Part shown: piece after piece, positions 13,588 to 36,632 of the stretch | Layout: each line of letters opens with the position of its first letter | Numbering within the stretch: position 1 is the stretch's first letter | Assembly: GCF_019355395.1 (NCBI RefSeq) | Contig: NZ_CP048829.1 | Coordinates: forward strand, 2,893,001 to 2,957,000 | DNA: 64,000 nucleotides | Source of the DNA: Chordicoccus furentiruminis | GTDB lineage: Bacteria > Bacillota > Clostridia > Lachnospirales > Lachnospiraceae | Reading direction: 5' to 3' | Made by a program: the position numbers and the translations under genes | Notes under the pieces: generated by a model | Database searches by the model: none | What the model saw: only the letters and a program-made list of their open reading frames with translations | Told to the model about the DNA's origin: nothing

Positions 13588-13623
13588 AAGAGGGCCGAAA
13601 AAGCCCGTGTTTAAGCCATTTCT

Positions 13624-13671: not shown

Positions 13672-13726
13672 AGAAAAAATGGGTCAATCACTTTTTCTGT
13701 GTGCTTGATGGTTACTGGTTACGTAC

Positions 13727-13918: not shown

Positions 13919-14027
13919 TTATAACACTTTGCACCTTTACACTTGAATAAAAGAAGGATCATCCTGTAAGGTTGTACGTATCATCCTGGCAAGATGAGAT
14001 ACCACAATCCAAAGGAGACCCTTCATC

Positions 14028-16789: not shown

Positions 16790-16804
16790 TAGGTATCGAA
16801 ATTT

Positions 16805-16856
16805 GCATTCGCTCTTTGCGGATGCGTTTGACAAATTCAGATAACAGGCATAAAGT
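16805..16856 (+). promoter_or_regulatory. operator-like repeat and promoter of the catabolic operon
   Basis: GCATTCGC (16805-16812) and GCGGATGC (16818-16825) are inverted with one mismatch. TTGACA (16828-16833), a 17-bp spacer and TAAAGT (16851-16856) follow. The repeat adjoining the -35 is where LysR activators usually bind. Transcripts would start upstream of the palindrome at 16883-16931. Confidence 0.5.
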
Positions 16857-16882
16857 ACTGCCCAACAAAACAAATTTCCAGA

Positions 16883-16939
16883 AAAAGACAATGGCGTCGT
16901 AAAGTACTAAAGTACGAAGCCGTTGTCTTTTGTTTTTCA
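16883..16939 (+). terminator. terminator or attenuator between lysR and the catabolic operon
   Basis: A 49-bp near-perfect palindrome: AAAAGACAATGGC and GCCGTTGTCTTTT as outer arms, with TCGTA/TACGA and AGTAC pairs inside, followed by GTTTTT. It ends about 20 bp before the first operon gene, so a promoter can hardly fit after it. If the promoter at 16828-16856 is real, this hairpin is in the leader and must be passed or relieved. Confidence 0.7.
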
Positions 16940-16952
16940 AGAAGGAGGCATG

Positions 16953-18080
16953 ATGAGCACAGACTTTCTGTATCTGTCCGAACCGGACATGATAAAAGCA
17001 GGTGTATTGGATGCAGGCAGATGCGTGGATGTCTGCGAAGAAGTTTTCTCTCTTCTGGGAACCGGAGATTATCTGATGGGCGGACCAAGTCATAACTCGC
17101 ATGGACTGGTCCTGATGTTTCCTAAGTCAAGTCCGTTCCCGGGCATGCCGCTTGAAGGGCCGGAGAGACGATTCATCGCCATGCCGGCTTATCTGGGCGG
17201 ACGGTTCCACGTATGCGGAGAGAAATGGTATGGATCCAATGTAGAGAATGTTCATTCGCGCAATCTTCCCCGATCCATTCTGATGATCACATTAAATGAT
17301 CCGGATAGCTGCGCACCGCTTGCATATATGTCAGGAAATCTGGTCAGTGCCATGCGGACCGGTGCGATCCCGGGGGTTGCTGTCCGGCATGCGGCCAATC
17401 AGGATGCGAAAACAATAGCCCTGATCGGAGGCGGCCCGATCCAGAAGGCAACTCTGATGGCAATGAAGGCTGAATTGCCCGGGCTCTCCGAAGTACGAGT
17501 CATGACTGCTCACAGAGCGAGTGCACAAAAGTTCCTTGCGTGGTGCGAAACGCAGGGAATGTCCGGTATCGCGACTTCTCTTGAAGAAGATGACAGGGCT
17601 CTGGAGAAGACAATTCTGGACAGCGATATCGTCAGCATCGCGGCTTCTCCGAAAAAGCCGATTTTTGTCGAAGACAAATGGATCAAGGAAGGAGCAACGG
17701 TTCTTCTTACATCTCCGATTGAAGCAGATGATGATTTCTGGCTGAACAATCAGGTCATTTATGACAATATCCGGATGCATGAGACTTATTTCGAAGAAGC
17801 GATGTCCCTCGGTGGTCCGGAGAAAGCGGTAAACGGATGGGGCAAAATGTATCGCCTGATTGCAGATGGCCGTATGACAGCACTCAAGGGTGCCTTTAAT
17901 ATGGGCACTGTGGTTTCGGAACATCAGACAGTCCGTACGGATAAGAGGCAGAAAGTGGTCTTTGTTACCAGTGGAATGGTCGTGTTTGACGTTGGCTGGA
18001 GCTGTGATATTTATCACAATGCCATTAAGAAAGGCATTGGGACCAGATTAAATTTATGGGAGAAACCATATTGGTCATGA
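16953..18080 (+). CDS. ornithine cyclodeaminase / mu-crystallin family protein
   Basis: About 375 residues. AAGGAGG lies 4 nt before the ATG at 16953; an adjacent ATG at 16950 is also possible. The Rossmann motif is TIALIGGGPIQKATLMA (about 165-180), preceded by SAMRTGAIPGVAVRHAA, both typical of the ornithine cyclodeaminase/mu-crystallin superfamily, whose members deaminate amino acids or reduce cyclic imines with NAD(P). Databases label some close relatives 'tyramine oxidase subunit B', for which the sequence gives no support. First gene of the operon, possibly handling an imino or amino intermediate late in the pathway. Confidence 0.8.
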   Translation: MSTDFLYLSEPDMIKAGVLDAGRCVDVCEEVFSLLGTGDYLMGGPSHNSHGLVLMFPKSSPFPGMPLEGPERRFIAMPAYLGGRFHVCGEKWYGSNVENVHSRNLPRSILMITLNDPDSCAPLAYMSGNLVSAMRTGAIPGVAVRHAANQDAKTIALIGGGPIQKATLMAMKAELPGLSEVRVMTAHRASAQKFLAWCETQGMSGIATSLEEDDRALEKTILDSDIVSIAASPKKPIFVEDKWIKEGATVLLTSPIEADDDFWLNNQVIYDNIRMHETYFEEAMSLGGPEKAVNGWGKMYRLIADGRMTALKGAFNMGTVVSEHQTVRTDKRQKVVFVTSGMVVFDVGWSCDIYHNAIKKGIGTRLNLWEKPYWS

Positions 18081-19453
18081 AAAAAATAATGCCTTATCAG
18101 AAACTGGAAGAGGAGATAAAGAACCAGGCTGCATTTGCCTGCTCCCTGCGGTACGAGGATATTCCCGAGAAAGTCCGCATGAGAGCCAGATACGTTCTTC
18201 TCGATTCAGTTGGATGTATTTTAAAAGGTCTGAACGGACAAACCGTTTCTTCTTCTTTTGATGACGCGGTCATGGAGACGTCAGCTGCAATGCTCAGCAC
18301 AGAATTGTACGAGGGAAATCGATTCGCGTGCGGGCATCCTGCCTGTCATATTGTGCCGATGATGCTTGAGTACCTGAGAAGACACGATGTCAGTGAGAGA
18401 AAAGTGCTGACTGCATTTGTGGCAGCTTATGAGATCGCCGCCAGATGGGGAAGTGCAGTCCGATTTGAGAGAACGATTCTCGGACACGGGACCGTGATGA
18501 CGGCGGGCGCTGCAGTGGCATTTTCGCTTCTTGAGAATGATGATGAGAGCACAGTGACGCAGTCGATTCTTCTTGCCAATTCGCTTCCGATGCTCTCAGT
18601 GTGGCAGACCGTCTATGATGGGAGCCGGTTGCATGATGCTTATCCCGGACTGGCTGCACTGAATGGAATCAGAGCTGTCAAGATGGCAAGACAGGGATAT
18701 TACAGCACAGGAAGAATCATCCTGGATGTATATGAAAACAAAATGCGGGCGACTGCCTGCTTCGACAATCTGGATAAGGGGCTGCTTTCAGAAGATGCCG
18801 GGAACGGCAAGACCGATTATCTGCTCCTGAAGAATTATTTTAAACTTTTTACAGGATGCCGCTTCATCCATCCATTTGCAGATGTGGTTCAGGAGGAGAT
18901 GGAGCACGGGTTAACGGAAGATGAAATCAGCAGCATCGAGGTCTATACCTACGAGAAAGCAGCTCAGCTGAATGAATGCAATATTCCGAACGATCTGTCC
19001 GCGAAGTTTTCGATGTCCATCTCCATCGCAGCTCAGTTAGTACGGGGAAATCTGGGAGTTGATGAGATTCACGATTGTATGCTTGATCCGAAGATCATGG
19101 ATTTATCAGGGCGAATCAAGTTGTTCCACGACGGTCACTATGATGAATGTCTTCCGGATCTGAGAGGCGGACGAATCCGGATCATCAAAAAGAATGGAAG
19201 TGAAATTGTGCGTGAGACGCTCCATGCAAGAGGAGATTTCGATTATCCGGGAGAAACATTTGAGACGGATGTGAAAAAGAAATTCAGCCGCAATGTTGTC
19301 CGTTATCTGAACCGTTCTCAGACGATGATCGAGGAGAAAAATATTCTGAAGATGGGGGAGGAAGAAAAGAAAATCGCACAGGAAACATTTCACTTCTGTC
19401 TCGAAGGCACAGCAGAGAGAAAAAAAGAAAAAATGTGTCTGAAAACAGGCTGA
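18077..19453 (+). CDS. MmgE/PrpD family protein
   Basis: About 458 residues. The start at 18077 overlaps the previous stop as ATGA, indicating translational coupling; an in-frame ATG at 18056 has no better ribosome-binding site. The N-terminal helical domain contains VRMRARYVLLDSVGCILKG, and later HDAYPGLAALNGIRAVKMA and CRFIHPFADVVQEE match the 2-methylcitrate dehydratase/cis-aconitate decarboxylase superfamily. Members dehydrate, decarboxylate or isomerise carboxylic acids without a metal cluster. In this operon it could act on a ring-opened acid. The real substrate is unknown. Confidence 0.85.
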   Translation: MKKIMPYQKLEEEIKNQAAFACSLRYEDIPEKVRMRARYVLLDSVGCILKGLNGQTVSSSFDDAVMETSAAMLSTELYEGNRFACGHPACHIVPMMLEYLRRHDVSERKVLTAFVAAYEIAARWGSAVRFERTILGHGTVMTAGAAVAFSLLENDDESTVTQSILLANSLPMLSVWQTVYDGSRLHDAYPGLAALNGIRAVKMARQGYYSTGRIILDVYENKMRATACFDNLDKGLLSEDAGNGKTDYLLLKNYFKLFTGCRFIHPFADVVQEEMEHGLTEDEISSIEVYTYEKAAQLNECNIPNDLSAKFSMSISIAAQLVRGNLGVDEIHDCMLDPKIMDLSGRIKLFHDGHYDECLPDLRGGRIRIIKKNGSEIVRETLHARGDFDYPGETFETDVKKKFSRNVVRYLNRSQTMIEEKNILKMGEEEKKIAQETFHFCLEGTAERKKEKMCLKTG

Positions 19454-19511
19454 TCTGAGAACAGATATGACAAGTGCATCACAGTTCTTTCATAAGGAGA
19501 GGAGAAGCAGA

Positions 19512-20348
19512 ATGGAAACAAAAATTTTCAAGGCAGCAGCGGTCAATATGGACTGTGAACTCGGAAATGTAAAAGCGAATCTGAATAAGATGCAGGACAT
19601 CTGCCAGGAAGCCTCGAGAAACGGTGCGCTGGCGATCTGTTTCCCGGAACTTGCGACGACCGGTTACAGCCCGACCATTCTGGGAGAAAAATACTATGAG
19701 ATTTCGGAACCCATTCCGGGAAGATCAACGGATTTCCTCTGCAAATTAGCCAAGGCAACCGGCCTTTATATCGTAACCGGAATCTCTGAAAAGAGTGCGG
19801 TGCCGGGAAGACTCTTTAACTCTCAGATCGCGATTTCTCCTGAAGGAAAAGTTGTGAGTGTTTATCGAAAAATTCATGTCTGGGGTCTGGAGAAGCTGAC
19901 ATGGCGGGAAAGCATCTCCTGCGAATACGGAACGTTCCAGATGCCGATGTGTCAGGCGGGCCATATGATCTGCTACGATACCTCTTTCCCTGAAACGGCC
20001 AGGGTACTTGCCTTGATGGGAAGCAACGTGATTTTCGATTCGGCAGCCTGGAGAAACCTGGAGGCTGATATCTGGGAACTGAATACGAGAGCGAGAGCGG
20101 TCGAAAATCATGTCTTTATGATCTGTTCGAACCGCTGCGGGGTGGAAGGCGATTCTACTTTAAATGGTGAAAGCCGTATCATCGGACCGAGAGGAAATGT
20201 CCTTGCAGCGGCAGGCCATGATGAAGAGATCATCTACGCGGATATCGATATTGATGCCTGCATCAAGGATAACGCCATGATGCTTTCTTATATGAAGGAC
20301 AGAAGACCAGAGGCATACTCACTGATTACGGATTGCTCAAACAGATAA
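19512..20348 (+). CDS. carbon-nitrogen hydrolase (nitrilase superfamily)
   Basis: 278 residues from ATG 19512 (AAGGAGAGGAGA upstream). The catalytic triad is visible: Glu in CFPELATTGYS, Lys in YRKIHVWG, Cys in MICYDTSFPE, and the later Glu/Arg-rich WELNTRARAVEN supports the fold. Members hydrolyse amides, N-carbamoyl compounds or nitriles. Next to a PreA-like reductase the closest functional parallel is beta-ureidopropionase of the reductive pyrimidine pathway, but the motif alone does not prove carbamoyl specificity. Confidence 0.88.
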   Translation: METKIFKAAAVNMDCELGNVKANLNKMQDICQEASRNGALAICFPELATTGYSPTILGEKYYEISEPIPGRSTDFLCKLAKATGLYIVTGISEKSAVPGRLFNSQIAISPEGKVVSVYRKIHVWGLEKLTWRESISCEYGTFQMPMCQAGHMICYDTSFPETARVLALMGSNVIFDSAAWRNLEADIWELNTRARAVENHVFMICSNRCGVEGDSTLNGESRIIGPRGNVLAAAGHDEEIIYADIDIDACIKDNAMMLSYMKDRRPEAYSLITDCSNR

Positions 20349-20357
20349 GGATGGGTC

Positions 20358-21449
20358 ATGTCTATGGATTTGGAGACAAAGCTGAAATCAGGCATTACGC
20401 TGAATAATCCCCTTATGGTTGCGTCCGGTCCACTTTCAGGATCTGCGGAACGGATCATTCAGACGGCCGGATACGGGCCCGGCGGAATTGTCACCAAAAC
20501 AATCTCTACATCGCTGCCACCGGAGAGACATCCCTTCATCTTCGGTCATCAGCAATACCTGCTGAATGATGAGCCCTGGTCGGAATTTTCTTCCGACACC
20601 TGGATGAAAGCATTCTTCCCGGAAATAAGGAAGAGCATCACAATTCCGCTGATTGTCAGCATCGGCTATTCGGCGGAGGATGTAGCGGAACTCGTTCCGG
20701 AATTCAACGAATTCGCGGATGCCTTTGAGTTGTCGGTCCAGTACGTCAGTCATGAAGAGGAGCGGGTCCTGCGGATCATCCGGACAGTCCGGAATCTTTC
20801 AGACAAGCCGGTTTATCTGAAACTCAGCAGTCATTTTCCGGACATAGAGCAGCTTGCCGGTGACGCTCTTTCAGAGGGAGCGTCGGGACTGGTTGTGATG
20901 AATTCGATCGGGCCCGCGACGAAGATGGTATCGGGAGAAAACAAGGTCCTGTTCGGGAATGAGGAAGGCGATGTGTGGATGTCCGGGCCGGTGATCAAAC
21001 CTCTCACCCTGTCGCTGATCAGAAGACTTCACAGGCGCTTCCCGGAGAGTGAAATCATCGGCGTGGGCGGCATTGCCACCGCAGAGGATGTCGTCGAATT
21101 TCTGATGGCAGGTGCCAGTGCCGTACAGATGGTTTCCGCCGCATTGCTGTATGGAAAACAGCGGTATTCCGAAATTGTCAAAAACCTTCCGGACGCACTG
21201 AAGCAATATGGATTTGAATCGGTTGAAGCATGCAGACAATCCGTTGAAAAGCCGGGTGATCCGGGAGATACGGAAGGCATTCGCATTGATCCGGAGAAAT
21301 GCAGCCGGTGCGGCCTTTGCGAGCGGGTATGTCCATTCTATGCAATGAGGCATTGTGAAGTCGACAGAACCCGGTGCATGCGATGCGGGCTGTGTGAGAG
21401 CCGCTGCCCGAGAGGCGCAATCAGCGGAGCTTTCAGAACGGCAGTGTAG
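20358..21449 (+). CDS. dihydroorotate/dihydropyrimidine dehydrogenase-like protein with two 4Fe-4S motifs
   Basis: 363 residues. Residues 1 to about 300 form an FMN-binding TIM barrel of the DHODH/PreA type (NPLMVASGPLSGSAE, VYLKLSSHFPDI, IIGVGGIATAEDVVEFLMAGA). The C-terminus adds a ferredoxin domain with CSRCGLCERVCP and CMRCGLCESRCP. This is the layout of PreA, which reduces the pyrimidine ring 5,6 double bond. PreA normally works with an NADH/FAD partner PreT, and none is seen here, so its electron donor is open. It starts 9 bp after the nitrilase stop. Confidence 0.85.
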   Translation: MSMDLETKLKSGITLNNPLMVASGPLSGSAERIIQTAGYGPGGIVTKTISTSLPPERHPFIFGHQQYLLNDEPWSEFSSDTWMKAFFPEIRKSITIPLIVSIGYSAEDVAELVPEFNEFADAFELSVQYVSHEEERVLRIIRTVRNLSDKPVYLKLSSHFPDIEQLAGDALSEGASGLVVMNSIGPATKMVSGENKVLFGNEEGDVWMSGPVIKPLTLSLIRRLHRRFPESEIIGVGGIATAEDVVEFLMAGASAVQMVSAALLYGKQRYSEIVKNLPDALKQYGFESVEACRQSVEKPGDPGDTEGIRIDPEKCSRCGLCERVCPFYAMRHCEVDRTRCMRCGLCESRCPRGAISGAFRTAV

Positions 21450-21493
21450 GGCGGCAGAACCATAAAAAGAATTTAATCGTACATCATCAGGAC

Positions 21494-21532
21494 AGTCTCA
21501 ATGGGGAGCGATCTTCATGGAGACTTTTTGTT
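21494..21532 (+). terminator. terminator or attenuator before the ABC importer genes
   Basis: AGTCTC (21494-21499) pairs with GAGACT (21520-21525), extended by ATG/CAT, then TTTTTGTTTT. It splits the operon into an enzyme part and a transporter part. Partial termination would set their ratio. Confidence 0.6.
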
Positions 21533-21553
21533 TTGAAGGAGGAAGACATCTGT

Positions 21554-23128
21554 ATGGCAGAGAAAATTCTTGAGATGAAAAATGTCAGTAAAACGTTCCC
21601 GGGAATTAAGGCTAACCAGGGGGTCAATCTCTCGTTATACAGAGGTGAAATTCATGCACTCCTTGGGGAAAATGGTGCAGGAAAGAGTACTCTGATGAAT
21701 ATCCTGACAGGAATCTACCAGCCTGATGAAGGTCAGATCTTCTTCAACGGGAAACAGGTTGATGTCACAAGCCCGAAAAAAGCAGCAGAACTTGGGATCG
21801 GCATGGTGCATCAGCACTTCAGGCTGATCCCGGTCCTGACCGTTGCGGAGAACATCATTCTGACTTCAGGCAGATGCCCGGCGGTTCTTGATGAACGTTA
21901 TATCAACAGTGAGATCCGGGACTGCGGAGAGAAGTACGGACTTGAACTTGATCCGGAAGCCAAAGTGTGGCAGCTCTCGGTCGGAGAACAGCAGAGGGTC
22001 GAAATCGTGAAACTCCTTTATCACGGAGCCGATGTTCTGATTCTGGATGAGCCGTCCGCGGTCCTGACACCGCAGGAATCAGTAAGACTTTTCAGAACCC
22101 TTAGAAAGATGGCGGACAGCGGAAAATCAATCGTATTTATTTCACATAAGATGCATGAAGTGATGGAATATGCAGACCGCGTGACCGTGCTGCGGAGAGG
22201 AAAGAGTGTCGCGACCGTGAAGCGCGGCGAAGCGTCAGTCGATGATCTGACTTACCTTATGATGGGTCATGCGCTCTCGAACATGTCCGAAAAAGAAGAA
22301 TTGCCATGTGGCGAAACAATTCTGGAATGTGACGGTGTCTGCGCGAAAAATGATCGTGGCATCCAGGGACTTAAGCATATCAGTTTTACACTCCGTTCAG
22401 GCGAGATTCTTGGTGTCGCCGGGGTCGCAGGAAACGGACAGAACCTGCTGGCCGAAGTGCTTGCGGGAATGCGGGAGGCGCCGCGGGGAAAAATCCTCTA
22501 TAAGGGGATCAATATTACCAGATATTCGATTAAGAAACGGAAAGAAAACGGGATTGCATTTGCTCCGGAGGACAGACTTGGCACAGGTCTTGTGCCTCAG
22601 ATGGATCTGATGGCCAATCTGATTCTGAAGGATTATGACAAGCTTCAGTTCAGCCGGCACGGCATCTTCCGGAAGAAGGCGATTCGCAGTATCACAGAGA
22701 AATGCGCGGAAAAATATGATATCCGAAGCGCAGGTGTGAACCGTCCGGTTGGCCTGATGTCCGGAGGAAATCAGCAGAAACTTCTGCTGGCACGCGAAGT
22801 AAGCCGGGACGCGGACGTTCTGATCGTGGCATATCCTTCAAGGGGACTCGATATCGGTGCTGTGAGTGCTGTTCATCATATCCTTGATGAAGAGAGAAAA
22901 AAAGGGACAGCGATTCTGATGATCTCAGAAGATCTGGATGAGATTTTTGAGATGTCGGACAGAATCTGCGTGCTTTTTGACGGCTATATGAGTCAGGAAC
23001 TGGAAACGACCGAAACGACCAAAACCGAGATCGGAAAACTGATGGCAGGCGAAGGAATCAAGACAGATGAGCATATTCGTCAGGACAGGAAGGACAGACA
23101 TATTCGATCCATAAGTGTCGCTGTATGA
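21554..23128 (+). CDS. ABC transporter ATP-binding protein, nucleoside/sugar (NupO/YufO) type
   Basis: 524 residues with two ATPase domains in tandem. The first has Walker A GENGAGKST and signature LSVGEQQRVEI with VLILDEPSAVLTP. The second has a degenerate Walker A (GVAGVAGNGQ) and signature MSGGNQQKLLLAREV with LIVAYPSRGLD, the normal asymmetry of RbsA/NupO-type ATPases. It powers import with the permeases and BMP protein that follow. AAGGAGG precedes the ATG at 21554. Transporters of this type usually carry nucleosides, purines or related compounds. Confidence 0.92.
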   Translation: MAEKILEMKNVSKTFPGIKANQGVNLSLYRGEIHALLGENGAGKSTLMNILTGIYQPDEGQIFFNGKQVDVTSPKKAAELGIGMVHQHFRLIPVLTVAENIILTSGRCPAVLDERYINSEIRDCGEKYGLELDPEAKVWQLSVGEQQRVEIVKLLYHGADVLILDEPSAVLTPQESVRLFRTLRKMADSGKSIVFISHKMHEVMEYADRVTVLRRGKSVATVKRGEASVDDLTYLMMGHALSNMSEKEELPCGETILECDGVCAKNDRGIQGLKHISFTLRSGEILGVAGVAGNGQNLLAEVLAGMREAPRGKILYKGINITRYSIKKRKENGIAFAPEDRLGTGLVPQMDLMANLILKDYDKLQFSRHGIFRKKAIRSITEKCAEKYDIRSAGVNRPVGLMSGGNQQKLLLAREVSRDADVLIVAYPSRGLDIGAVSAVHHILDEERKKGTAILMISEDLDEIFEMSDRICVLFDGYMSQELETTETTKTEIGKLMAGEGIKTDEHIRQDRKDRHIRSISVAV

Positions 23129-23169
23129 AAAGAAATGGAATGAAGAAGCGAGACTGAAAGGAGCTGTTC

Positions 23170-24300
23170 ATGAATAAACATAAGTTGATCATTTCAAGGC
23201 GAAGTCATATTCCTGTCTGGTTCCGCGCCTTAAATATTCTGCTTTTTGCCTTCCTGGCTCTGGCGTTCTGCAGCATTTTCATGGTCATGCAGGGGCTGAA
23301 TCCATTCCGTGTGTATTTCAATATGTTTCGGTCCGCCTTCGGATCGGCAAACGGATGGAGTAAAAGCATTCTGGCCGGAATACCTCTGATGATCTGCGGA
23401 CTCGGTGTTTCCATCGCATTTCGTATGAACCTGAATAACATCGGGGCCGAAGGACAATTTGCGATGGGGGCGATTGCCTCTGCCGGTTTCATTCTGTTCG
23501 GACCGAAGATTCCTTCGTCTCTGCAGATTCCGGTCATGATTGTCTTATCCCTTCTTGCCGGTGCCGGATGGGCGCTGATCGCAGCTCTCCTCAAAGCGTT
23601 CTGGAATGTGAATGAAACCATTGTCACGCTGATGCTGAATTACATCGCGCTGCTTTTCCTTGATTATCTGTGCTATGGACCATGGAAGGGCGCCGGTGGA
23701 TTGAATCTTCCCTATACGGCTAATATACCGGAGACGGCTCAGATGCCGATGCTCTTTGGTGGCTCATTCAGCTCCGCATTCCTGATTGCGGTCGCGGTCG
23801 CTGTATTTCTGTTCTGGTTATTCCGGTATACCACGATCGGATATCAGATTGATGTCATCAAGAACAGCACAAATGCCGCACGCTATGCAGGCATGAATGT
23901 CAGGAAGAATATCCTGATCGTCTTAACCGTCAGCGGTGCGCTTTGCGGCCTGACCGGTGCCGTGCAGGTATCCAGCGTGATATACAGACTGCAGCCGAAT
24001 CTTCCGAATGGAGCTGGGTATACCGCCATTATCATCGCGTATCTCAGCAAATTTAACCCTCTTGCGATCATTCTTGTCTCCATCTTCTTCGGAGGACTTG
24101 ACCGGGGCGCTTATGCAGTTCAGATCGACGGTGTCCCATCCCAGGTGGCTACGATGATCCGGGGTGCCATTCTGATCTTTGTCATCGCAAGTGAGTTCTT
24201 CACACAGTACAGAATTAAAAGGACAACTATGGCGATGGAGAACCAGACGAAACAGAAAAAGCAGATCCTTATTAAGACAGTAGCGCAGAAAGAAGGCTGA
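23170..24300 (+). CDS. ABC transporter permease, nucleoside type (NupP-like)
   Basis: 376 residues with about nine hydrophobic segments after a short basic N-terminus. The conserved RMNLNNIGAEGQFAMGAIA and RYAGMNVRKNILIVLTVSGALCGLTGA mark the BPD_transp_2 family of nucleoside/ribose permeases. AAAGGAG lies about 8 nt upstream. Pairs with the next gene to form the membrane channel. Confidence 0.92.
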   Translation: MNKHKLIISRRSHIPVWFRALNILLFAFLALAFCSIFMVMQGLNPFRVYFNMFRSAFGSANGWSKSILAGIPLMICGLGVSIAFRMNLNNIGAEGQFAMGAIASAGFILFGPKIPSSLQIPVMIVLSLLAGAGWALIAALLKAFWNVNETIVTLMLNYIALLFLDYLCYGPWKGAGGLNLPYTANIPETAQMPMLFGGSFSSAFLIAVAVAVFLFWLFRYTTIGYQIDVIKNSTNAARYAGMNVRKNILIVLTVSGALCGLTGAVQVSSVIYRLQPNLPNGAGYTAIIIAYLSKFNPLAIILVSIFFGGLDRGAYAVQIDGVPSQVATMIRGAILIFVIASEFFTQYRIKRTTMAMENQTKQKKQILIKTVAQKEG

Positions 24301-24305
24301 TCGTG

Positions 24306-25232
24306 ATGACTGTACTGGTATCTATCTTAAGTTCGACCGTTGTCATGGCAACATGCCTTTTATATGCCACCATCGGAGAAATATTTGCACAGCGATCCGG
24401 CGTGATGAACCTGGGACTTGAAGGCATTATGCTGATTGGAGCAGTCACAGGATATATCGCGGACTGTAACACAAAAAATCTTGGAATAGCTGTTCTGACA
24501 GCGATTGCGGCGGGTATATTGGTTGGAATTCTCTATGCTTTTCTGACCGTATCCCTGATGGCGGATCAGACGGTCTGCGGACTTGCATTTCTTACCTTTG
24601 GAACAGGACTCGCCGGTTTTATCGGCAGTGCATATACCAATATCCCTGCAGGTCATCAGTTTCAGAAGATTGCGATTCCGCTTCTCTCAAAAATCCCGCT
24701 GATCGGCACCGTGCTGTTCAATCAGAATATACTGGTCTATTTCATGTATCTTCTGATCCCGGCAGCTATGTTTTACATCTACCGGACAAGGTTCGGACTG
24801 ATGCTTCGGGCTCTGGGCGAGAATCCGGGAGCTCTGGATGCAGCGGGGTATAACATCTTTGCGATGCGTTATGGCTATGTCATATTCGGGTGCGCCATGA
24901 CTTCCCTCGCAGGGGCTTACCTGTCTTTAGCCTATACAAATCTCTGGAATGAGAACATGGTGAATGGACTCGGATGGATTGCCTGTGCGCTTGTCATATT
25001 CGGTTCCTGGAACCCGCTGGTCTCCATGATCGGTGCCTTGATCTTCGGAAGTGTGAGTGTTCTGGCCAATTATTTTCAGCTGCTGCTGCCAATGGTACCG
25101 TCTCAGTTCATGAAAATGCTTCCATATTTTCTCACCATCGTTGTGCTGGTTCTGACAACGGGCAGTTTCCGAAAAAAGCATGTGGAAGTGCCTGCCGCTC
25201 TGGGAGTTGCGTACGACAGAGAGAACCGGTGA
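24306..25232 (+). CDS. ABC transporter permease, nucleoside type (NupQ-like)
   Basis: 308 residues. The family motif FAQRSGVMNLGLEGIMLIGAV comes early, then about eight membrane segments. It starts 5 bp after the first permease. A GTG three bases earlier is possible. The second channel subunit of the importer. Confidence 0.92.
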   Translation: MTVLVSILSSTVVMATCLLYATIGEIFAQRSGVMNLGLEGIMLIGAVTGYIADCNTKNLGIAVLTAIAAGILVGILYAFLTVSLMADQTVCGLAFLTFGTGLAGFIGSAYTNIPAGHQFQKIAIPLLSKIPLIGTVLFNQNILVYFMYLLIPAAMFYIYRTRFGLMLRALGENPGALDAAGYNIFAMRYGYVIFGCAMTSLAGAYLSLAYTNLWNENMVNGLGWIACALVIFGSWNPLVSMIGALIFGSVSVLANYFQLLLPMVPSQFMKMLPYFLTIVVLVLTTGSFRKKHVEVPAALGVAYDRENR

Positions 25233-25309
25233 CATAAAAAACGGGCACAAGCTGCCAGCCTGAAAGGGTTTTCATCAGCATTTCATATAAAAAACAGGGA
25301 GGAAAGCTT

Positions 25310-26500: not shown

Positions 26501-26559
26501 AAATACTGACCTCTGGCAGGAAACATAATTTCCGGGCTTTATAAACTTGTATCTTGTGC

Positions 26560-26594
26560 GTTCATCCGGATTGCCGTCAGGCATCCGGATGAAC
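26560..26594. repeat. inverted repeat between BMP gene and xdh genes
   Basis: GTTCATCCGGAT and TCCGGATGAAC plus TGCC/GGCA around a 4-nt GTCA tip form a strong hairpin. No T-run follows, so it may be an mRNA stabiliser or a weak pause site rather than a terminator. Confidence 0.5.
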
Positions 26595-26640
26595 AAATGC
26601 TATTCATCACAGATAGCCGAAGAGAGACGGGAGCAGCAGG

Positions 26641-28761: not shown

Positions 28762-29305
28762 ACTGGCAATGCGTCAGGGAAAAGTGAGGACGGAAACAGG
28801 TCCTGCGGAGAATGCTCCGGCCGAATTCAAGCTGAAGGTAAATGGCAGGTGGTGCAGCGTTCATGGATCACCGACAGACCGTCTCCTCGACGTTCTCCGC
28901 GGAGAACTGCAGCTGACCGGAGTGAAAGAAGGGTGCGGAGAAGGAGAATGCGGTGCCTGCTCCGTGATCATTGACGGACGGCTCTGTAATTCCTGCCTTG
29001 TCGCAATCGGAAGTGTAGAAGGGTGCAGCATCACGACCATCGAGGGACTCCGGGGGACGGAACGATATGCCACCATCGAGAAGGCGTTTGGAGATGCCGG
29101 CGCTGTACAGTGCGGCTTCTGCATTCCTGGAATGGTGATGGCAGCCGAGGCGCTGTTGGAGAAGAATGATTCGCCTTCAGTCGATGAGATCAGGCTGGCG
29201 ATATCGGGAAATCTTTGCCGCTGTACGGGTTATAACATGATCATTGATGGTATCCGACTGGCTGCAGAAAGGGGGCGTGGATTATGGAAAGATGCCGCCC
29301 GCTGA
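28754..29305 (+). CDS. xanthine-dehydrogenase-type 2Fe-2S subunit
   Basis: 183 residues from ATG 28754, chosen because GAGGAGG lies just upstream and the start overlaps the previous stop. Two clusters are visible: plant-type EGCGEGECGACSV with the later NSCL, and CGFCIPGM with GNLCRCTGY. The first 25 residues are an unusual Ala/Glu-rich extension. It passes electrons from the molybdenum centre to FAD. Confidence 0.95.
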   Translation: MAELAMRQGKVRTETGPAENAPAEFKLKVNGRWCSVHGSPTDRLLDVLRGELQLTGVKEGCGEGECGACSVIIDGRLCNSCLVAIGSVEGCSITTIEGLRGTERYATIEKAFGDAGAVQCGFCIPGMVMAAEALLEKNDSPSVDEIRLAISGNLCRCTGYNMIIDGIRLAAERGRGLWKDAAR

Positions 29306-30135
29306 CGATATCGGACGCTCTTGGGGAGATGAAATCCGGTGATGCGACTGTTTTTGCAGGCGGTACCGATCTGATGGTTCGGAAAGTCTGGAAGAATAAA
29401 TGCGTCTTCATCGGCAGCATCCCTGAACTTAAGACGGTTCGGAAAACAAAAAGTGGAATGGAAATCGGAGCCGCCGCCACGATCACTGAACTTCTGGAGA
29501 ATCCGATTATTCCTGATTTTATGAAGAAGGTGTTTGAGCAGATGGCTTCTCCTGCGATACGGAATCGGGCGACTCTCGGTGGCAATGCAGGCAACGCATC
29601 TCCTGCCGGTGATTCACTCCCTATGCTCTATGCGCTGCGTGCCGGGATTGTCCTGGCAGATCTGGATCCGGCAGGACAGGTCTTTACGCGAACGCTTCCG
29701 ATCCGGGACTTCATTACCGGTGTCAGGAAAACGGTCATCCGGCCGGAGGAACTGATCGTTCGGTTTCTGATCCCGGCGGATTCTCTTGGAGATCAGAACC
29801 TTTACTATGAAAAGAAAGTTGGCGCACGACGGGCAGAAGCGATCTCCAAACTATCTTTTTTCGGACGAGTCAGACGAAAGGACGGGAAGATCGAGGACTT
29901 TGCTGCGGCGTTTGGCGCGGTAGGCAGGACCGTCGTGACTAATGCTGAAGCAGAAGAGCTGATTCGCGGCATGACGATGGATGAGCTTTCTTCGAACAGA
30001 GAAAAGATCATGACACTCTACGACGATGTGATTCATCCGATCGATGATCAGCGTTCCACGGCGGATTACAGAAAAACGGTTTCCATGAACCTGCTTCGGG
30101 ATTTTCTTGATCTCGTGGAGAAAGACAATTCCTGA
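29284..30135 (+). CDS. xanthine-dehydrogenase-type FAD subunit
   Basis: 283 residues, overlapping the 2Fe-2S gene by 22 bp. FAD-binding motifs are VFAGGTDLMV (about 20-29), ASPAIRNRATLGGNAGNASPAGD and the C-terminal CO-dehydrogenase flavoprotein domain. It completes the heterotrimer and hands electrons to an external acceptor. Confidence 0.93.
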   Translation: MERCRPLTISDALGEMKSGDATVFAGGTDLMVRKVWKNKCVFIGSIPELKTVRKTKSGMEIGAAATITELLENPIIPDFMKKVFEQMASPAIRNRATLGGNAGNASPAGDSLPMLYALRAGIVLADLDPAGQVFTRTLPIRDFITGVRKTVIRPEELIVRFLIPADSLGDQNLYYEKKVGARRAEAISKLSFFGRVRRKDGKIEDFAAAFGAVGRTVVTNAEAEELIRGMTMDELSSNREKIMTLYDDVIHPIDDQRSTADYRKTVSMNLLRDFLDLVEKDNS

Positions 30136-30226
30136 AGATCGGGAAGGCAGCTGGATTCCTGAAAAGGATCCCATCGCAGGCTGCCACAAACGGATGACAA
30201 TCAGGCAGGCATACAGGAAAATGCAA

Positions 30227-31582
30227 ATGGACGATCAGAGAAAAAAACTTCTAATTGTAGGAAATGGCACCATCATCACGATGACAGAGAAAGGCATCGT
30301 GAAAGATGGTGCGGTTGTGCTGGATCCGGATCGTGACATCATTGCGGATATCGGGGAAACGAAGTCTGTTCTCCGGAAGTATGACGGGATCAATTACGAT
30401 TACCTGGATGCAGAAGGGTATCTCGTTTTTCCCGGCTTCATCAATGCGCATGAGCACAGCTATGCATCGTTTGTACGCGGACTTTGTATAAAGGATCCCC
30501 AGCCGACTGACTTTATGGAAAATCTGAGGCGTAAATGGTGGGTACTGGACGAATCTCTTGATGAGAAGCAGGTGGAGATCGAGACACTCGTATCCTATCT
30601 GGATGCGGTTCATCATGGCGTCACGACCCAATTTGAGCACCATGTCTCGTTCGGTTTCATCGACGGGAGCCTTTCCGTGATCGGAAAGGCAGCCGATCAG
30701 ATCGGAATCCGGACCTGTTCCTGCTTTGAGGTCTCGGACAGAAACGGCATGGAGAAGGCAGATGCCGCCATCAGGGAAAACGTCCGATGGATGAAAGAGG
30801 CGGAGGAGAAAAAGGACGGTCTGAATACCGGCGTCATGGGCCTTCATGCTTCGTTTACGCTCTCCGACCGAACCCTGACAAGAGTCAGGGAAGCGCTTCC
30901 GAAAGGCGGCGGCTGTCACATCCATGTTGCGGAAAGTAAGGAGGATGTAGAGGACTGCATTTCCCGCTATGGTGTTCGGATTCCGGAGCGTCTTGAGCGG
31001 TATGACCTTCTGAATGATAAGACGATCATTGCGCATGGCGTCTTTTTGAACCGGGATGATATGGAGAGGATCAGCAGGAAAAATGCGGCTGTCGTCAACA
31101 ATTTTGAATCGAACATGAATAATGCTGTCGGCTGTCCGCCCACAAGGGAACTGGTTTATGAGGGTATTCTGACGTGCCTGGGAATGGATGGTTATACGCA
31201 CAGTGTTCCGGATTCCCTTCGGATCGGCAGTGCACTGCTGAAGTTATCCTCCCATGATATCAACGCGGGATGGGGCGAACTCTGGAAAATGGTGACGGAG
31301 GGAAATCCGATCCTCGCGGGCAGATTCTTTGATAAGAAGTTCGGACAGATTGCAGAGGGGTTTGTCCCGGACCTTGTACTGTCCCGTTATGATCCGCCGA
31401 CACCTCTCAATCGTGATACGCTGGAAGCCCATCTGATCTTCGGTCTGGACAGTCGGAGTATCAGTACGGTGATCTGCCACGGAAGAATCGTGATGAGAGA
31501 TGGTGTGGTTCTGGGTGTGGATGAAGAGAAGGTCCTTGCGGAATCCAGAGTGCAGGCCAGACGTCTCTGGGAAAAAATGTAA
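30227..31582 (+). CDS. ssnA: SsnA-like aminohydrolase/amidohydrolase
   Basis: About 451 residues; ATG 30227 is preferred (AGGA 8 nt upstream), with ATG 30221 close by. A metal-dependent amidohydrolase: FPGFINAHEHSYASF carries the HxH motif, then HIHVAES, IIAHGVFL and CLGMDGYTHS with the metal-binding Asp. Overall it matches SsnA, a guanine-deaminase-like enzyme found next to molybdenum hydroxylases and, in gut bacteria, in purine/urate gene clusters. It would deaminate or open a ring produced by the hydroxylases. Confidence 0.82.
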   Translation: MDDQRKKLLIVGNGTIITMTEKGIVKDGAVVLDPDRDIIADIGETKSVLRKYDGINYDYLDAEGYLVFPGFINAHEHSYASFVRGLCIKDPQPTDFMENLRRKWWVLDESLDEKQVEIETLVSYLDAVHHGVTTQFEHHVSFGFIDGSLSVIGKAADQIGIRTCSCFEVSDRNGMEKADAAIRENVRWMKEAEEKKDGLNTGVMGLHASFTLSDRTLTRVREALPKGGGCHIHVAESKEDVEDCISRYGVRIPERLERYDLLNDKTIIAHGVFLNRDDMERISRKNAAVVNNFESNMNNAVGCPPTRELVYEGILTCLGMDGYTHSVPDSLRIGSALLKLSSHDINAGWGELWKMVTEGNPILAGRFFDKKFGQIAEGFVPDLVLSRYDPPTPLNRDTLEAHLIFGLDSRSISTVICHGRIVMRDGVVLGVDEEKVLAESRVQARRLWEKM

Positions 31583-31641
31583 ACGTCTGTCTGACCGTTA
31601 CGCGGGATTTAAGTGAAACAGAACATCCGGAGAGGGAAACA

Positions 31642-34629
31642 ATGGCGTATACGTTGACGGTGAACGGTAAGGAATATACAACCGATGAAGATAAACCGCT
31701 CCTCCGCTTTCTGCGGGATGATCTTCACCTGTATTCAGTGAAGGATGGCTGTTCTGAAGGTGCCTGCGGAACATGTACGGTGATCGCCGATGGCGTCGCA
31801 GTCAAGTCCTGTGTCATGAGCACGAAGCGTGCTGAAGGCCGGAAGATCACGACAGTGGAAGGATTGTCCGCTTTTGAGAAAGAAGTCTTTGTCTATGCTT
31901 TCGGGGTAAAGGGTGCGGTTCAGTGCGGATTCTGCACACCCGGGATGGTTATGTGCGCGAAGGCTCTGATCGACAAAAATCCGGATCCGAAAGAGGAGAA
32001 AATCAAAGCTGGAATCCGGGGAAATCTTTGCCGGTGTACCGGATATAAAAAAATCATCGAGGCGATCAGACTTGCGGCGGAGATTCTCCGGGGCGACCGT
32101 GTGATGGATGTGTCCCCGGAGGATCCGGATGCGGGCATCGGAACGAGGACGATCCGTGTCGATGTCAGAAGAAAGGTGCTGGGATACGGAAAATATCCGG
32201 ATGATATAGGACCGGAATATTTTGTGAGAGAAGGATCAGGAGAAGCGGAGGTTCTGGCAGAAAAGACCGGGATGACGCTTTCTGCTGACAGGGTGGTGCT
32301 TAATCCGGATGACCCCGGCTGCACGTATGCTCAGATGGTCCCTTCGGATATGCCTTCTTTAGCTTATGCATCGGCAGTTCGTTCCAGATATCCGCGGGCT
32401 CTTGTGAAAAAAATAGATTTTGCGGAAGCCGCTGCGCTTCCGGGGGTACTGGGCGTTCTGACTGCAAAGGATGTACCGGTCAATAAAGTCGGGCATATCC
32501 AGCAGGATTGGGATGTTCTGATCGGTGAAGGCAGCATAACGAGATGCGTCGGGGATGCTATCTGTCTGGTGGTTGCGGGATCCATGCAGACTCTGATGGA
32601 GGCAAAAAAACGGATCCGGATCGAATATGAAGTCCTGGAACCGGTCCGCAGTATTGAAGAAGCGAAGAAAGCGGACGCGCCGAAAGTGCATTCCGGTGGA
32701 AATCTCTGTCAGAGCCGGCATGTCATTCGGGGAGATGCGAAAAAGGCACTGGAAGAGTCGGCTTTTACGGCAACAGGATCTTTTTCAACCCCTTTTACGG
32801 AACATGCTTTTCTTGAACCGGAATGTGCCGTTGCATTTCCGTACAAAAACGGTGTGAAAGTGCTGGCTGCCAACCAGTCTGAATACGACGCGAGAAGAGA
32901 AATTCTGCATATGTTCGGCTGGGAGAACGATCCTCAGAGAGTCGTTGTGGAGGATATGCTGATCGGAGGCGGATTTGGGGGAAAAGAGGATCTTTCGGTC
33001 GAGCATCTTGCAGCGCTGGCTGCAGTTCGGTTCAAGCAGCCTGTGAAGGTGAAGCTGACACGGCAGGAGAGCATCAACTTCCATCCCAAGCGCCACGCCA
33101 TGAAGGGAACCTTTACGATTGGCTGCGATGCACAGGGGATTCTTACAGGACTGGATTGCGAGATTCATTTTGACACAGGGGCGTATGCGTCACTCTGCGG
33201 CCCTGTCCTGGAACGGGCATGCACGCATTCAGTAGGCCCGTACTGTTATCAGAATACCGATATCAGAGGATATGGCTGGTACACCAACAACCCGCCGGGA
33301 GGCGCTTTCCGGGGATTCGGTGTCTGCCAGTCTGAATTTGCAGTTGAATCTCTTCTCAACGTTCTGGCGAAGAAGGCGGGGATCTCGCCATGGGAAATCC
33401 GATACCGCAATGCGATCGAGCCTGGAAAAGTACTTCCGAACGGTCAGATCGCGGATGTATCGACGGCACTGAAGGAGACACTTCTTGAGGTCAAACCGTA
33501 TTTTGATCAGAATGCCGATCATTGCGGGATCTCCTGCGCCATGAAAAATGCCGGTGTCGGAGTGGGTCTTCCGGATAAAGGACGCGCCCGTCTGGTGATT
33601 GAGCATGGGCAGGTGGTCATCTATTCTGCGGCGGCCGATATCGGACAGGGGTGTCTGACGGTTTTCTGTCAGGATGTGGCGGAGGCGACCGGACTTACGA
33701 TCCGAAGAATCCGGAACGGAATCGCCAATACAGAAAATGCACCTGATTCGGGTGCGACATCCGGATCAAGACAGACGCTTCTGACAGGAGAAGCGGTCAG
33801 AGGTGCCGCTTTTCTTCTTCGGGATGCCATGTTGGCCGCGGAAAGAGCAGCGCAGTCCGGGCAGTCCATTGAGGATGTTTTAAGGCAGACAGAGGGATTT
33901 ATCCATCCGAGGCAGGCCATGAATCAGACCGCGCAGTATGGAACGACCACGGATTTTGCACCGGTGGATCGAAACGGCTTTGTAAGTCCTGCCTTTACCA
34001 TTGAATCAGATGGAACACTGTCGGCCTATGGAAGCGGTCTGGATCAGGGTACCTATGGAAAGAAAGGAACTCAGACCGCGATCAGCGGCTCTCCGGTGAA
34101 GGATCCTGATGCCGCGATCAGAGCGCTGGAGGGAAGAAAATTTTATTACGAATATTTTGAACCGACGGACAGACTGGGCGCGGACGTTCCGAATGCCAAA
34201 AGTCATGTGACTTATTCTTTCGGCACAAATGTCGCTGTGCTCGATGATCAGGGAAAAGTGACAACCATTTATGCCGTGTATGATGCGGGAAAGGTCGTCA
34301 ACCCGGTATCGATACAGGGCCAGATTGAGGGCGGAGCGCTGATGAGCATGGGATATGCGCTGACAGAGAATTTTCCATTGAAAGACTGTGTTCCTCAGGC
34401 AAAATTCGGCACGCTCGGGCTTCTGCGTGCCACGCAGATACCGGATATTGAGGCCGATACGGTCGAGAAAGAGACGCTGCTTGGAACCTCTTATGGGGCT
34501 AAGGGAATTGGAGAAATCACCAGTATTCCTACGGCCGCCGCCATCGGAGGCGCTTATTTCGCAAAGGACGGGAAGCTGCGATGCCGACTGCCTCTGGAGG
34601 ACACGTTTTATTCCAGGAAGCGGAGATGA
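31642..34629 (+). CDS. fused 2Fe-2S/molybdenum hydroxylase (XdhD / selenium-dependent xanthine dehydrogenase type)
   Basis: 995 residues. Residues 1 to about 155 are the 2Fe-2S part (DGCSEGACGTCTV, CGFCTPGM, GNLCRCTGY). After a linker, the molybdopterin part has GGGFGGKEDLSVEH, GGAFRGFGVCQ, AADIGQGCLTVFC and GAKGIGE with catalytic Glu near 958. No FAD domain is present, so it needs a partner, possibly the FAD subunit at 29284. This fused layout is that of E. coli XdhD and the so-called selenium-dependent xanthine dehydrogenases. It is a second hydroxylase in the same operon, implying two oxidation steps or two substrates. No in-frame TGA codon is seen. Confidence 0.88.
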   Translation: MAYTLTVNGKEYTTDEDKPLLRFLRDDLHLYSVKDGCSEGACGTCTVIADGVAVKSCVMSTKRAEGRKITTVEGLSAFEKEVFVYAFGVKGAVQCGFCTPGMVMCAKALIDKNPDPKEEKIKAGIRGNLCRCTGYKKIIEAIRLAAEILRGDRVMDVSPEDPDAGIGTRTIRVDVRRKVLGYGKYPDDIGPEYFVREGSGEAEVLAEKTGMTLSADRVVLNPDDPGCTYAQMVPSDMPSLAYASAVRSRYPRALVKKIDFAEAAALPGVLGVLTAKDVPVNKVGHIQQDWDVLIGEGSITRCVGDAICLVVAGSMQTLMEAKKRIRIEYEVLEPVRSIEEAKKADAPKVHSGGNLCQSRHVIRGDAKKALEESAFTATGSFSTPFTEHAFLEPECAVAFPYKNGVKVLAANQSEYDARREILHMFGWENDPQRVVVEDMLIGGGFGGKEDLSVEHLAALAAVRFKQPVKVKLTRQESINFHPKRHAMKGTFTIGCDAQGILTGLDCEIHFDTGAYASLCGPVLERACTHSVGPYCYQNTDIRGYGWYTNNPPGGAFRGFGVCQSEFAVESLLNVLAKKAGISPWEIRYRNAIEPGKVLPNGQIADVSTALKETLLEVKPYFDQNADHCGISCAMKNAGVGVGLPDKGRARLVIEHGQVVIYSAAADIGQGCLTVFCQDVAEATGLTIRRIRNGIANTENAPDSGATSGSRQTLLTGEAVRGAAFLLRDAMLAAERAAQSGQSIEDVLRQTEGFIHPRQAMNQTAQYGTTTDFAPVDRNGFVSPAFTIESDGTLSAYGSGLDQGTYGKKGTQTAISGSPVKDPDAAIRALEGRKFYYEYFEPTDRLGADVPNAKSHVTYSFGTNVAVLDDQGKVTTIYAVYDAGKVVNPVSIQGQIEGGALMSMGYALTENFPLKDCVPQAKFGTLGLLRATQIPDIEADTVEKETLLGTSYGAKGIGEITSIPTAAAIGGAYFAKDGKLRCRLPLEDTFYSRKRR

Positions 34630-35258
34630 TCTTCCGAAAAATCAGAACGGTGGCGGTTATGGAGAAGAATCATACGGTATCTTGTACGGCATTGATTACG
34701 GCAGCGGGCAGATCGACGCGTATGAAGCAGTTCAAGCAGCTCATGGAGATCAATGGTGTCAGTATGGCTGAGCGGGTTGTCGGGTTAATCCGGGAGGCAG
34801 GTATCCGCGATATTGTCATGATCACGGGATTTAATGAAAATCGTCTCAGAGAGGCGCTGAAAGAGTATCCTATCGTATTTCTTCATAACGAGAAGTTTGC
34901 AACGACGGATATGTTCGAGAGCGCGAAGGTCGGGCTTCGATATCTGCAGGGTAAGGCTGAACGTGTTTTGTTTTGCCCGGTTGATGTGCCTTTCTTTCAA
35001 TCAGAGACCATTCGTCTTGAGATGAAGAGGACAGAGAATGTTGTGTACCCGTCCTTTCATTTTCATGCAGGGCACCCTGTTCTCTTTGACGGGGAGGTGA
35101 TTCCGTCCCTTCTCCGATACCATGGCTCCGGAGGAATGAAAGGCGCATTCGATTCTCTCAGTGGTGCGACAAAATATTATCTTGACGTGGATGACGCAGG
35201 AATTCTGCGGGATCTGGATGAGCCGGAAGATCTTGGCAAGGATCCGCAAATACGATGA
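34626..35258 (+). CDS. MocA/MobA-like nucleotidyltransferase
   Basis: 210 residues. ATG 34626 overlaps the previous stop (ATGA) and has AGGAAG upstream; a start at 34659 is possible. The NTP-transferase motif is TALITAAGRSTRMKQFKQL (about 20-38), then VLFCPVDVPFF and a Pro-His box GHPVLFDG, as in MocA, which adds CMP to molybdopterin to make the dinucleotide cofactor used by xanthine-dehydrogenase-type enzymes. Its position directly after the fused hydroxylase supports cofactor maturation for that enzyme. Confidence 0.82.
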   Translation: MIFRKIRTVAVMEKNHTVSCTALITAAGRSTRMKQFKQLMEINGVSMAERVVGLIREAGIRDIVMITGFNENRLREALKEYPIVFLHNEKFATTDMFESAKVGLRYLQGKAERVLFCPVDVPFFQSETIRLEMKRTENVVYPSFHFHAGHPVLFDGEVIPSLLRYHGSGGMKGAFDSLSGATKYYLDVDDAGILRDLDEPEDLGKDPQIR

Positions 35259-35288
35259 TCGACTTTGAGTCGGGAAAGGGTGAACAGG

Positions 35289-36632
35289 ATGAAAACGCTG
35301 ATTCAGAATGCAACAGTCTATACGGTTGATTCGGAAGATACCGTTCTTGAAAATGCTTCAATTCTGATTGACGGGACAAGAATTGCACGGATTCTGAAGG
35401 CGGGAGAGAAGCTGCCTGATGCGGATAAGACGATTGATGCCCGGGGCAAGGTGGTGTTTCCGGGGTTCGTCAACACGCATATCCATATCTTCCAGTCGCT
35501 TCTCAAAGGACTCGGTGCCGACAAACGCCTGATTGACTGGCTGAATGCATCGGCGCTTCCGTATGGAGCCAAGATCGGGCCGGATCTGCAGTATGAAGCC
35601 GCGCGGCTTGCCAGTGCGGAGGCTTTGCAGTCAGGATGCACCACTTTGTGCGAATTCTTCTATACGACGCAGTCTGAGGAGCTGGCCCACGCCGTGATTT
35701 CAGGCATGCAGGAGCTGGGAATTCGAAGCGTCTTCATCAGAACGTTTCAGGATACAGGAACCGAGTATGGGATGCCGGACTGCTTCATCGAAACAGCAGC
35801 GGATGCGATGAAGAAAACCGATCAGCTTGTCAGTCAGTATAACGGGAAGAGCGACATGCTTCAGATCTGGACCGGACCGGATGTCACCTGGTCCACGACA
35901 AAGGAAGGCTACCTGACGATGCTTGAATATTGCAGGGAGAAGCATGTCCGTTATTCCATGCATATTCAGGAGACGGAAGTCGACAATGAGATGAGCAATC
36001 GCTATTATGGAAAGAATATTGTCGACCTTCTGGATGAAATCGGTTTTCTGTCAGACCAGATGCTTGCGGTGCACTGTGTCAATCTGACGGATCATGAACT
36101 GAACCTTTTTGCCGGACATGGCGTGAATGTCAGCCATTGTCCTATGGCGAACATGTATCTTGCTTCAGGCTACGCTCCGACGGTGAAAATGCTGCAGCAG
36201 GGAATCAATCTTTCGCTTGGCACGGATGGCGCGGCCAGCAATAATACGACGAATATGCTGGAAACGATGAAAATGGCCACAGTAACACAGAAAGCCAACT
36301 ATCGCGACGCGACGATCATGACCGCAAAGCAGATCTTAAGAGCGGCCACTATGGGAGGCGCGAAGGCGATCGGAATGGAAGATGAGATCGGATCGGTTGA
36401 GGAAGGCAAGAAGGCTGATCTGATCATCTTTGATCCTTATCACCTCACCAGTTTCCCGATGCATGACCCGCTGGCAACGCTCGTCTATTCATCCTGTGTT
36501 CCGAATATCGAGACGACTATTGTGAACGGGAAAATCATGTATCACCGTGGCCATTTTGCAGGCATGGAAGATCTGAACGGTATGTACCGGAACATCGAAG
36601 CGGGACTAGCCAAGGTCAGAATGCAGTTGTAA
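35289..36632 (+). CDS. TrzN/AtzB-type amidohydrolase
   Basis: 447 residues from ATG 35289. The COG0402 amidohydrolase family motifs are FPGFVNTHIHIFQSL (HxH), HIQETEVD, AVHCVNLTDHE and NLSLGTDGAASNNT with metal-binding Asp. Relatives deaminate or dechlorinate triazines, 8-oxoguanine, guanine or S-adenosylhomocysteine. It is only distantly similar to SsnA in this operon and is the last gene, so the operon encodes two distinct aminohydrolases. The natural substrate is unclear. Confidence 0.85.
   Translation: MKTLIQNATVYTVDSEDTVLENASILIDGTRIARILKAGEKLPDADKTIDARGKVVFPGFVNTHIHIFQSLLKGLGADKRLIDWLNASALPYGAKIGPDLQYEAARLASAEALQSGCTTLCEFFYTTQSEELAHAVISGMQELGIRSVFIRTFQDTGTEYGMPDCFIETAADAMKKTDQLVSQYNGKSDMLQIWTGPDVTWSTTKEGYLTMLEYCREKHVRYSMHIQETEVDNEMSNRYYGKNIVDLLDEIGFLSDQMLAVHCVNLTDHELNLFAGHGVNVSHCPMANMYLASGYAPTVKMLQQGINLSLGTDGAASNNTTNMLETMKMATVTQKANYRDATIMTAKQILRAATMGGAKAIGMEDEIGSVEEGKKADLIIFDPYHLTSFPMHDPLATLVYSSCVPNIETTIVNGKIMYHRGHFAGMEDLNGMYRNIEAGLAKVRMQL

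Follow-up and report, generated by a model that had tools for sequence, protein, structure and literature searches.

Reductive purine degradation and related pathways

The reductive uric-acid pathway starts with the conversion of urate to yanthine by XdhD (Li et al., 2025, PMC12507026). Reduction of yanthine falls to YgfK, whose place in C. difficile is taken by UacX, a DHOD-type enzyme, and SsnA opens the ring (PMC12507026). The later steps, carried out by HyuA, YgeW or UacY, YgeY, and YgeX, lead to pyruvate (PMC12507026). YqeB is a marker of the selenium cofactor (PMC11448449). Two other routes resemble parts of this chemistry. The pyrimidine pathway (PydA/PreA, PydB, PydC) combines reduction, ring hydrolysis, and ureido removal, and includes a beta-ureidopropionase of the nitrilase superfamily. 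The xanthinase pathway of purinolytic clostridia also degrades purines anaerobically and possesses a Se-type molybdenum hydroxylase, but it is hydrolytic and lacks a ring reductase.

Chordicoccus furentiruminis, a gut-type anaerobe, possesses the full canonical set of urate genes. Its canonical cluster (G000:C1:2764746-2778097) contains SsnA, YgfK, a ferredoxin-like gene, XdhAC, YgeY, YgeW, YqeA, and HyuA, with YgeX (2379688) and YqeB (3223354) located outside it. Separate from this set is the operon described here, which lies in the window (the whole stretch of DNA that was analysed, 64,000 nucleotides long) and carries its own importer. Because the host already has a urate route, such an operon more likely serves another substrate. 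Our preferred reading, to which we assign a probability of about 0.55, is that of an acquired reductive purine (urate)-type module repurposed for another heterocycle and equipped with a new lower half.

Organization of the operon

The operon comprises 15 co-directional, intact, full-length genes on the + strand (16953-36632), extending from a relative of ornithine cyclodeaminase to a TrzN-like enzyme. Intergenic distances range from overlaps to +140 bp when open reading frames (ORFs) are taken from the first ATG, GTG, or TTG. The original prediction had counted fourteen genes; all the gene families that it named are present on this strand and intact. It had also called the operon LysR-controlled, which agrees with position: a LysR-family gene (15890-16789, + strand; Pfam LysR_substrate and HTH_1) lies upstream in the same direction, just outside the region first assigned to the operon, and from this placement its product is the probable operon regulator. 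The sole good promoter-like site between this gene and the first operon gene is TTGACA-17-TAAAGT (16828-16856, + strand), which scores 10/12 in a consensus scan, although such sites occur in near chance number regionally. On its 3′ side sits a strong hairpin followed by a T-rich stretch (16881-16939, + strand; RNA fold -27.5 kcal/mol, z -3.2 versus shuffles), which could be the lysR terminator or an operon attenuator. An Rfam search of window positions 12000-44000 returned no match.

The first three genes encode an ornithine cyclodeaminase/mu-crystallin family oxidoreductase (OCD; 16953-18080, NF004848 subfamily), a divergent MmgE/PrpD protein with both Pfam domains (18056-19453), and a nitrilase-superfamily C-N hydrolase (19512-20348, Pfam CN_hydrolase), probably a carbamoyl or amide hydrolase. 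They are followed by a UacX-type flavin reductase with two 4Fe-4S clusters and an altered active-site motif (20358-21449). The importer consists of a BMP-type ATPase (21533-23128; 46% to the importer ATPase of L039, a UacX-type urate cluster), two permeases (23170-24300 and 24303-25232), and what is by sequence a BMP/PnrA-like substrate-binding protein (25310-26500; 30% to the BMP protein of L039). A three-subunit hydroxylase is encoded by XdhA, the molybdenum subunit (26641-28761), XdhC, the 2Fe-2S subunit (28754-29305; the listed ORF begins at 28640, with 28754 the probable start), and XdhB, the FAD subunit (29284-30135). The remaining genes encode an SsnA-type amidohydrolase (30221-31582; listed ORF from 30107), a fused XdhAC of the Se-dependent xanthine dehydrogenase type (31642-34629), a MocA-like molybdenum cofactor nucleotidyltransferase (34659-35258; Pfam NTP_transf_3, 41% to MocA of the UacX-type cluster L044), and a TRZ/ATZ-family aminohydrolase (35289-36632) of the 8-oxoguanine, 5′-deoxyadenosine, or AtzB-like kind.

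This inventory supports what had been proposed from the DNA, namely a putative breakdown of an N-heterocycle that combines uptake with molybdenum hydroxylation, reduction, and opening of the ring and whose lower half is unfamiliar. The accompanying statement that the set does not match known urate clusters has to be revised. The upper half (BMP importer, two molybdenum hydroxylases, MocA, UacX, SsnA, and deaminase) is by homology a urate/purine-type module, related to the UacX variant through UacX (support 100/99), XdhA (100), and the marker enzyme SsnA. Like that variant, known from C. difficile (PMC12507026), the operon has molybdenum hydroxylases, MocA, a UacX-type reductase without an FAD domain, and SsnA, and in some UacX loci there is also a BMP-type importer, as well as a gene of the adenine-deaminase or TRZ type. 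In contrast to the variant, it lacks HyuA, UacY/YgeW, YgeY, and YgeX and carries the nitrilase, MmgE/PrpD, and OCD genes instead; its UacX has lost the S(T/A)HYVG motif, and its SsnA comes from the other, YgfK-type branch. The YgfK-type cluster of the host resembles the operon in its XdhAC, which is a sister sequence (65%), and in an SsnA of the same clade (38%). However, it encodes YgfK in place of UacX, has no three-subunit hydroxylase and no BMP importer that we could see, and holds the YgeY, YgeW, YqeA, and HyuA genes that the operon lacks. The xanthinase pathway was rejected as a model, since the reductase is not needed there.

An acquired island

The operon is, judging from composition and surroundings, a horizontally acquired island, because its G+C is foreign, transposases flank it, and its reductase has no close relative in congeners. 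Its G+C content is 0.506, compared with roughly 0.60 for most of the other genome stretches that were read, and its third-position G+C is about 0.55, against values mostly between 0.72 and 0.84 in the host urate cluster. ISL3 transposases flank it on both sides, and a third transposase and a Mutator-type transposase lie further to the right. A search of 41 congeners recovered no close relative of the UacX protein.

A 38-nt repeat, 87% identical between its two copies, occurs beside the flanking transposases (window 13767-13804 and 41035-41072). The same low-G+C island also holds an erythromycin-esterase-family gene followed by a MerR/GyrI-type regulator (window 44172-45515) and a gene for a YhcG-type (DUF1016) PDDEXK nuclease (window 51023-52180).

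A divergent UacX with altered clade-specific positions

The ring reductase had been described as PreA-like. Phylogeny shows it to be UacX-like, since it is nested within the main UacX clade (support 100/99), near the proteins of L039, L040, L041, and L044 (92/85). It has a DHOD-type FMN domain and two 4Fe-4S clusters without an FAD domain, as in UacX, and all eight cluster cysteines are retained. A plain PreA pathway was rejected on the score of the reductase with the PreA model NF006183 (109 versus a cut-off of 335), and nicotinate fermentation was rejected because the ring reductase groups with UacX.

The terminal branch of this protein measures 2.09, against a median of 0.21. It reads SVQYVS where 21/21 other UacX proteins keep S(T/A)HYVG, and ERHPF where all the others have (V/I)P(R/K)PC or VVRPC. 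A profile alignment places the S(T/A)HYVG position at the dihydropyrimidine dehydrogenase loop that surrounds the catalytic cysteine 671. N70, E72, N182, and S183, which align with regions 609-611 and 736-737 of dihydropyrimidine dehydrogenase when mapped by eye, are retained. Near-invariant columns, defined on the other alignment members with the window sequence excluded, are changed at 23 of 99 positions (20 control rows: median 1, maximum 12). Changes affect 14/34 urate-clade-specific columns versus 6/56 of those shared with more distant UacX-like proteins (Fisher p 0.0013). L108, another divergent UacX, displays a weaker form of the pattern (3/45 versus 9/31, p 0.012); it is as divergent overall (mean identity 0.412 versus 0.404 for the window protein), yet it retains S(T/A)HYVG.

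The kinship with dihydropyrimidine dehydrogenase, a profile relative sharing the four residues aligned by eye, raises the question of a substituted pyrimidine as substrate. Its reductive degradation would follow the order of PydA-PydB-PydC, through the UacX-like, SsnA-like, and nitrilase-type enzymes, after which OCD and MmgE/PrpD would act on an unusual amino acid. Reductase, cyclic amidohydrolase, and nitrilase-type enzyme do form the same chemical trio, but we regard this pathway as quite improbable. The reductase and hydroxylases fall in urate-type clades by sequence, the ring hydrolase is SsnA-type, and pyrimidines need neither two molybdenum hydroxylases nor a purine-type deaminase. Moreover, as had been pointed out in the original prediction, neither PreT nor a dihydropyrimidinase appears in the operon gene list, where the only amidohydrolases are of the SsnA and TRZ types.

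SsnA and the molybdenum hydroxylases

The SsnA-type protein scores above the NCBIfam cut-off for SsnA (NF005540, 493 versus 444 bits), keeps its metal-site residues, and falls in a clade of YgfK-type clusters from the same genus (support 99). Its terminal branch is long, at 1.52 versus at most 0.56 within its own clade, and 5/56 near-invariant columns are changed (controls: median 0, maximum 3). The fused hydroxylase exceeds the cut-off for Se-dependent xanthine dehydrogenase (TIGR03311, 1108 versus 830 bits) and groups with the XdhAC of urate clusters as sister to that of the host's own cluster (support 100); with 11/174 near-invariant columns changed (control maximum 68), it is not an outlier. 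XdhA clusters with the XdhA of UacX-type clusters (support 100). It shows changes in 21/167 columns (controls: median 1, maximum 7) and branches first in its clade, a position from which its differences may be partly ancestral. Since UacX and XdhA group with UacX-type clusters, and XdhAC and SsnA with YgfK-type ones, the operon is a mosaic of both versions of the urate module.

A substrate shift at the ring-reducing and ring-opening steps would fit the altered UacX and SsnA better than decay, because clade-specific columns are hit, cluster cysteines and metal residues are kept, and the branches of both proteins are long. Long branches can also arise from relaxed selection. Were the operon a recently acquired, IS-flanked island under no selection in this host, its unusual residues would reflect decay, and the transposases on both sides, the foreign G+C, the long branches, and the missing close UacX relatives in 41 congeners would all be in keeping with such a history. 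We hold this to be very improbable, given that 15/15 genes are intact and full-length, that cluster cysteines and metal ligands are retained, and that the changes in UacX are concentrated in clade-specific columns.

Related loci in other genomes

A search with the reductase in 195 relatives and in 391 genomes from the class recovered 21 loci whose reductase is 32-46% identical to the window UacX and which were assigned to the UacX type on gene content. SsnA is adjacent in all of them, nearly all also have XdhA/C/B or XdhAC, and MocA is found in most. YgeX, YgeY, UacY-like, or HyuA-like genes are present in most loci within the 7.6-20 kb that were read, while adenine deaminase and a BMP importer each occur in some. 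As to the conservation of the neighborhood, proposed earlier as a check, the pairing of SsnA with UacX holds in 21/21 loci, but nitrilase, MmgE/PrpD, and OCD accompany it in 0/21, some of these contigs being short. The approximately 1,000 genomes searched with its reductase yielded no further instance of the complete operon, so conservation cannot serve as evidence. Within 338 genomes of the family there were only four weak UacX relatives, of another subgroup, and a contig scan with the reductase, host genome left out, yielded nothing closer than distant DHOD relatives (27-34%), located on poor contigs.

Several other operons were encountered. One in the same family (L148, G952:C21:8000-27999, 7574-18127) combines a UacX-like reductase (32%), an SsnA-like amidohydrolase, a BMP importer, and a TRZ-type enzyme, and on its gene content is another undescribed operon of the UacX/SsnA kind. 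It also holds two methenyl-tetrahydromethanopterin cyclohydrolase genes (MCH, PF02289), for which this is an odd setting. A locus from the same genus (L114, G022:C9:1-20000, 1593-19987) encodes a UacX-like reductase (29-31%), Xdh subunits, two amidohydrolases, a BMP importer, a FolB-family gene, a flavin reductase, and a TRZ-type enzyme (41% to that of the window), and is possibly an operon for pterin breakdown. At two more loci (L149, G1043:C24; L151, G972:C75), a UacX-like reductase is encoded in a compact operon together with an amidohydrolase and three Xdh subunits; these represent a further subgroup of the family.

A different lower half

The genes that complete urate degradation are located elsewhere in the genome. 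In agreement with the absence of ygeX, ygeY, ygeW, and hydantoinase-type genes noted earlier, tblastn with the E. coli proteins found no match to YgeX, YgeY, or YgeW within the 64 kb window and, for HyuA, only a weak 70-residue match inside the TrzN-like gene; no UacY-type amidohydrolase is in the operon gene list. The nitrilase, MmgE/PrpD, and OCD genes stand in their place. The nitrilase-type protein displays the Glu, Lys, and Cys motifs typical of its superfamily (by inspection), and its nearest PDB relatives are PH0642 and a nitrilase/beta-ureidopropionase entry; it could therefore plausibly remove a ureido or amide group.

Among solved structures, the OCD protein is nearest to 4m54, which a family match assigns to the SbnB type. 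This type is linked to 2,3-diaminopropionate, the final intermediate of the urate route, and in a different genome the gene of a relative of the OCD protein (46%) lies next to those for hydantoinase A and B. A second OCD gene of the subfamily (42%) is present in the host (G000:C1:1326198-1327319); its neighbors include a sugar ABC transporter and a glycosyl-hydrolase-like gene, and no purine genes. The PDB relatives of the MmgE/PrpD protein are weak, namely IRG1 (5e-8) and iminodisuccinate epimerase (3e-5), and the protein may isomerise, dehydrate, or decarboxylate an acid. A search of 391 class genomes yielded no MmgE/PrpD ortholog, the best match reaching 31%. On plasmids, relatives of OCD and MmgE/PrpD turned up in rhizobia, among others, and the annotated plasmid neighborhoods of OCD that were examined are unrelated operons. 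A literature search found no paper combining MmgE, cyclodeaminase, nitrilase, and xanthine dehydrogenase.

The SbnB and beta-ureidopropionase resemblances are what a second, self-contained uric-acid pathway would lead one to expect. Here the upper half, all of whose enzymes are present and whose XdhAC is not unusually changed, would convert urate through yanthine to ureidomethyl-hydantoin, and non-homologous stand-ins would replace HyuA, YgeY/UacY, and YgeX. The nitrilase would act on both ureido groups, the TRZ-type enzyme on the hydantoin ring, and the cyclodeaminase relative on 2,3-diaminopropionate. We judge this arrangement unlikely, as UacX has lost its conserved motif, the SsnA branch is long, the host already possesses a canonical urate gene set, and MmgE/PrpD is left unexplained.

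A proposed pathway

Under the preferred reading, that of a repurposed module, the compound imported by the BMP-type ABC system would be an N-heterocycle, purine-like or related but not uric acid itself, and the TRZ/ATZ-type aminohydrolase would deaminate the imported ring where needed. XdhA/C/B and XdhAC, aided by MocA, would set the oxidation state of the ring. The UacX-like flavoprotein would then dearomatise its pyrimidine part, drawing electrons from two 4Fe-4S clusters (ferredoxin-linked); hydrolysis of the reduced ring would fall to the SsnA-like enzyme. The exposed ureido or amide group would be removed by the nitrilase-type enzyme, and the cyclodeaminase-type oxidoreductase and MmgE/PrpD would process the leftover amino acid skeleton, replacing HyuA, YgeW/UacY, YgeY, and YgeX. 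We infer the purine-like ring as target, the non-urate substrate, the order of steps, and every lower-half step, that of MmgE/PrpD with the least certainty. A more specific form of this proposal is advanced tentatively: an undescribed anaerobic route in which a substrate-shifted UacX and SsnA and a nitrilase-MmgE/PrpD-cyclodeaminase lower half would degrade some N-heterocycle other than urate, such as a modified purine, deazapurine, or pteridine. It would be one of several derivatives that the urate module has given rise to in this bacterial family.

Elucidated as recently as 2025, the reductive urate pathway has ties to gout and to purine balance in the gut. For annotation, the locus is a warning against taking SsnA or a selenium-type xanthine dehydrogenase by itself as a marker of uric-acid degradation. 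The UacX-like, SsnA-like, and nitrilase proteins form a compact test set, and the binding protein offers a handle for finding the substrate. The locus suggests that anaerobes have treated the ring-breaking core of urate degradation as a reusable module and turned it to other heterocycles.
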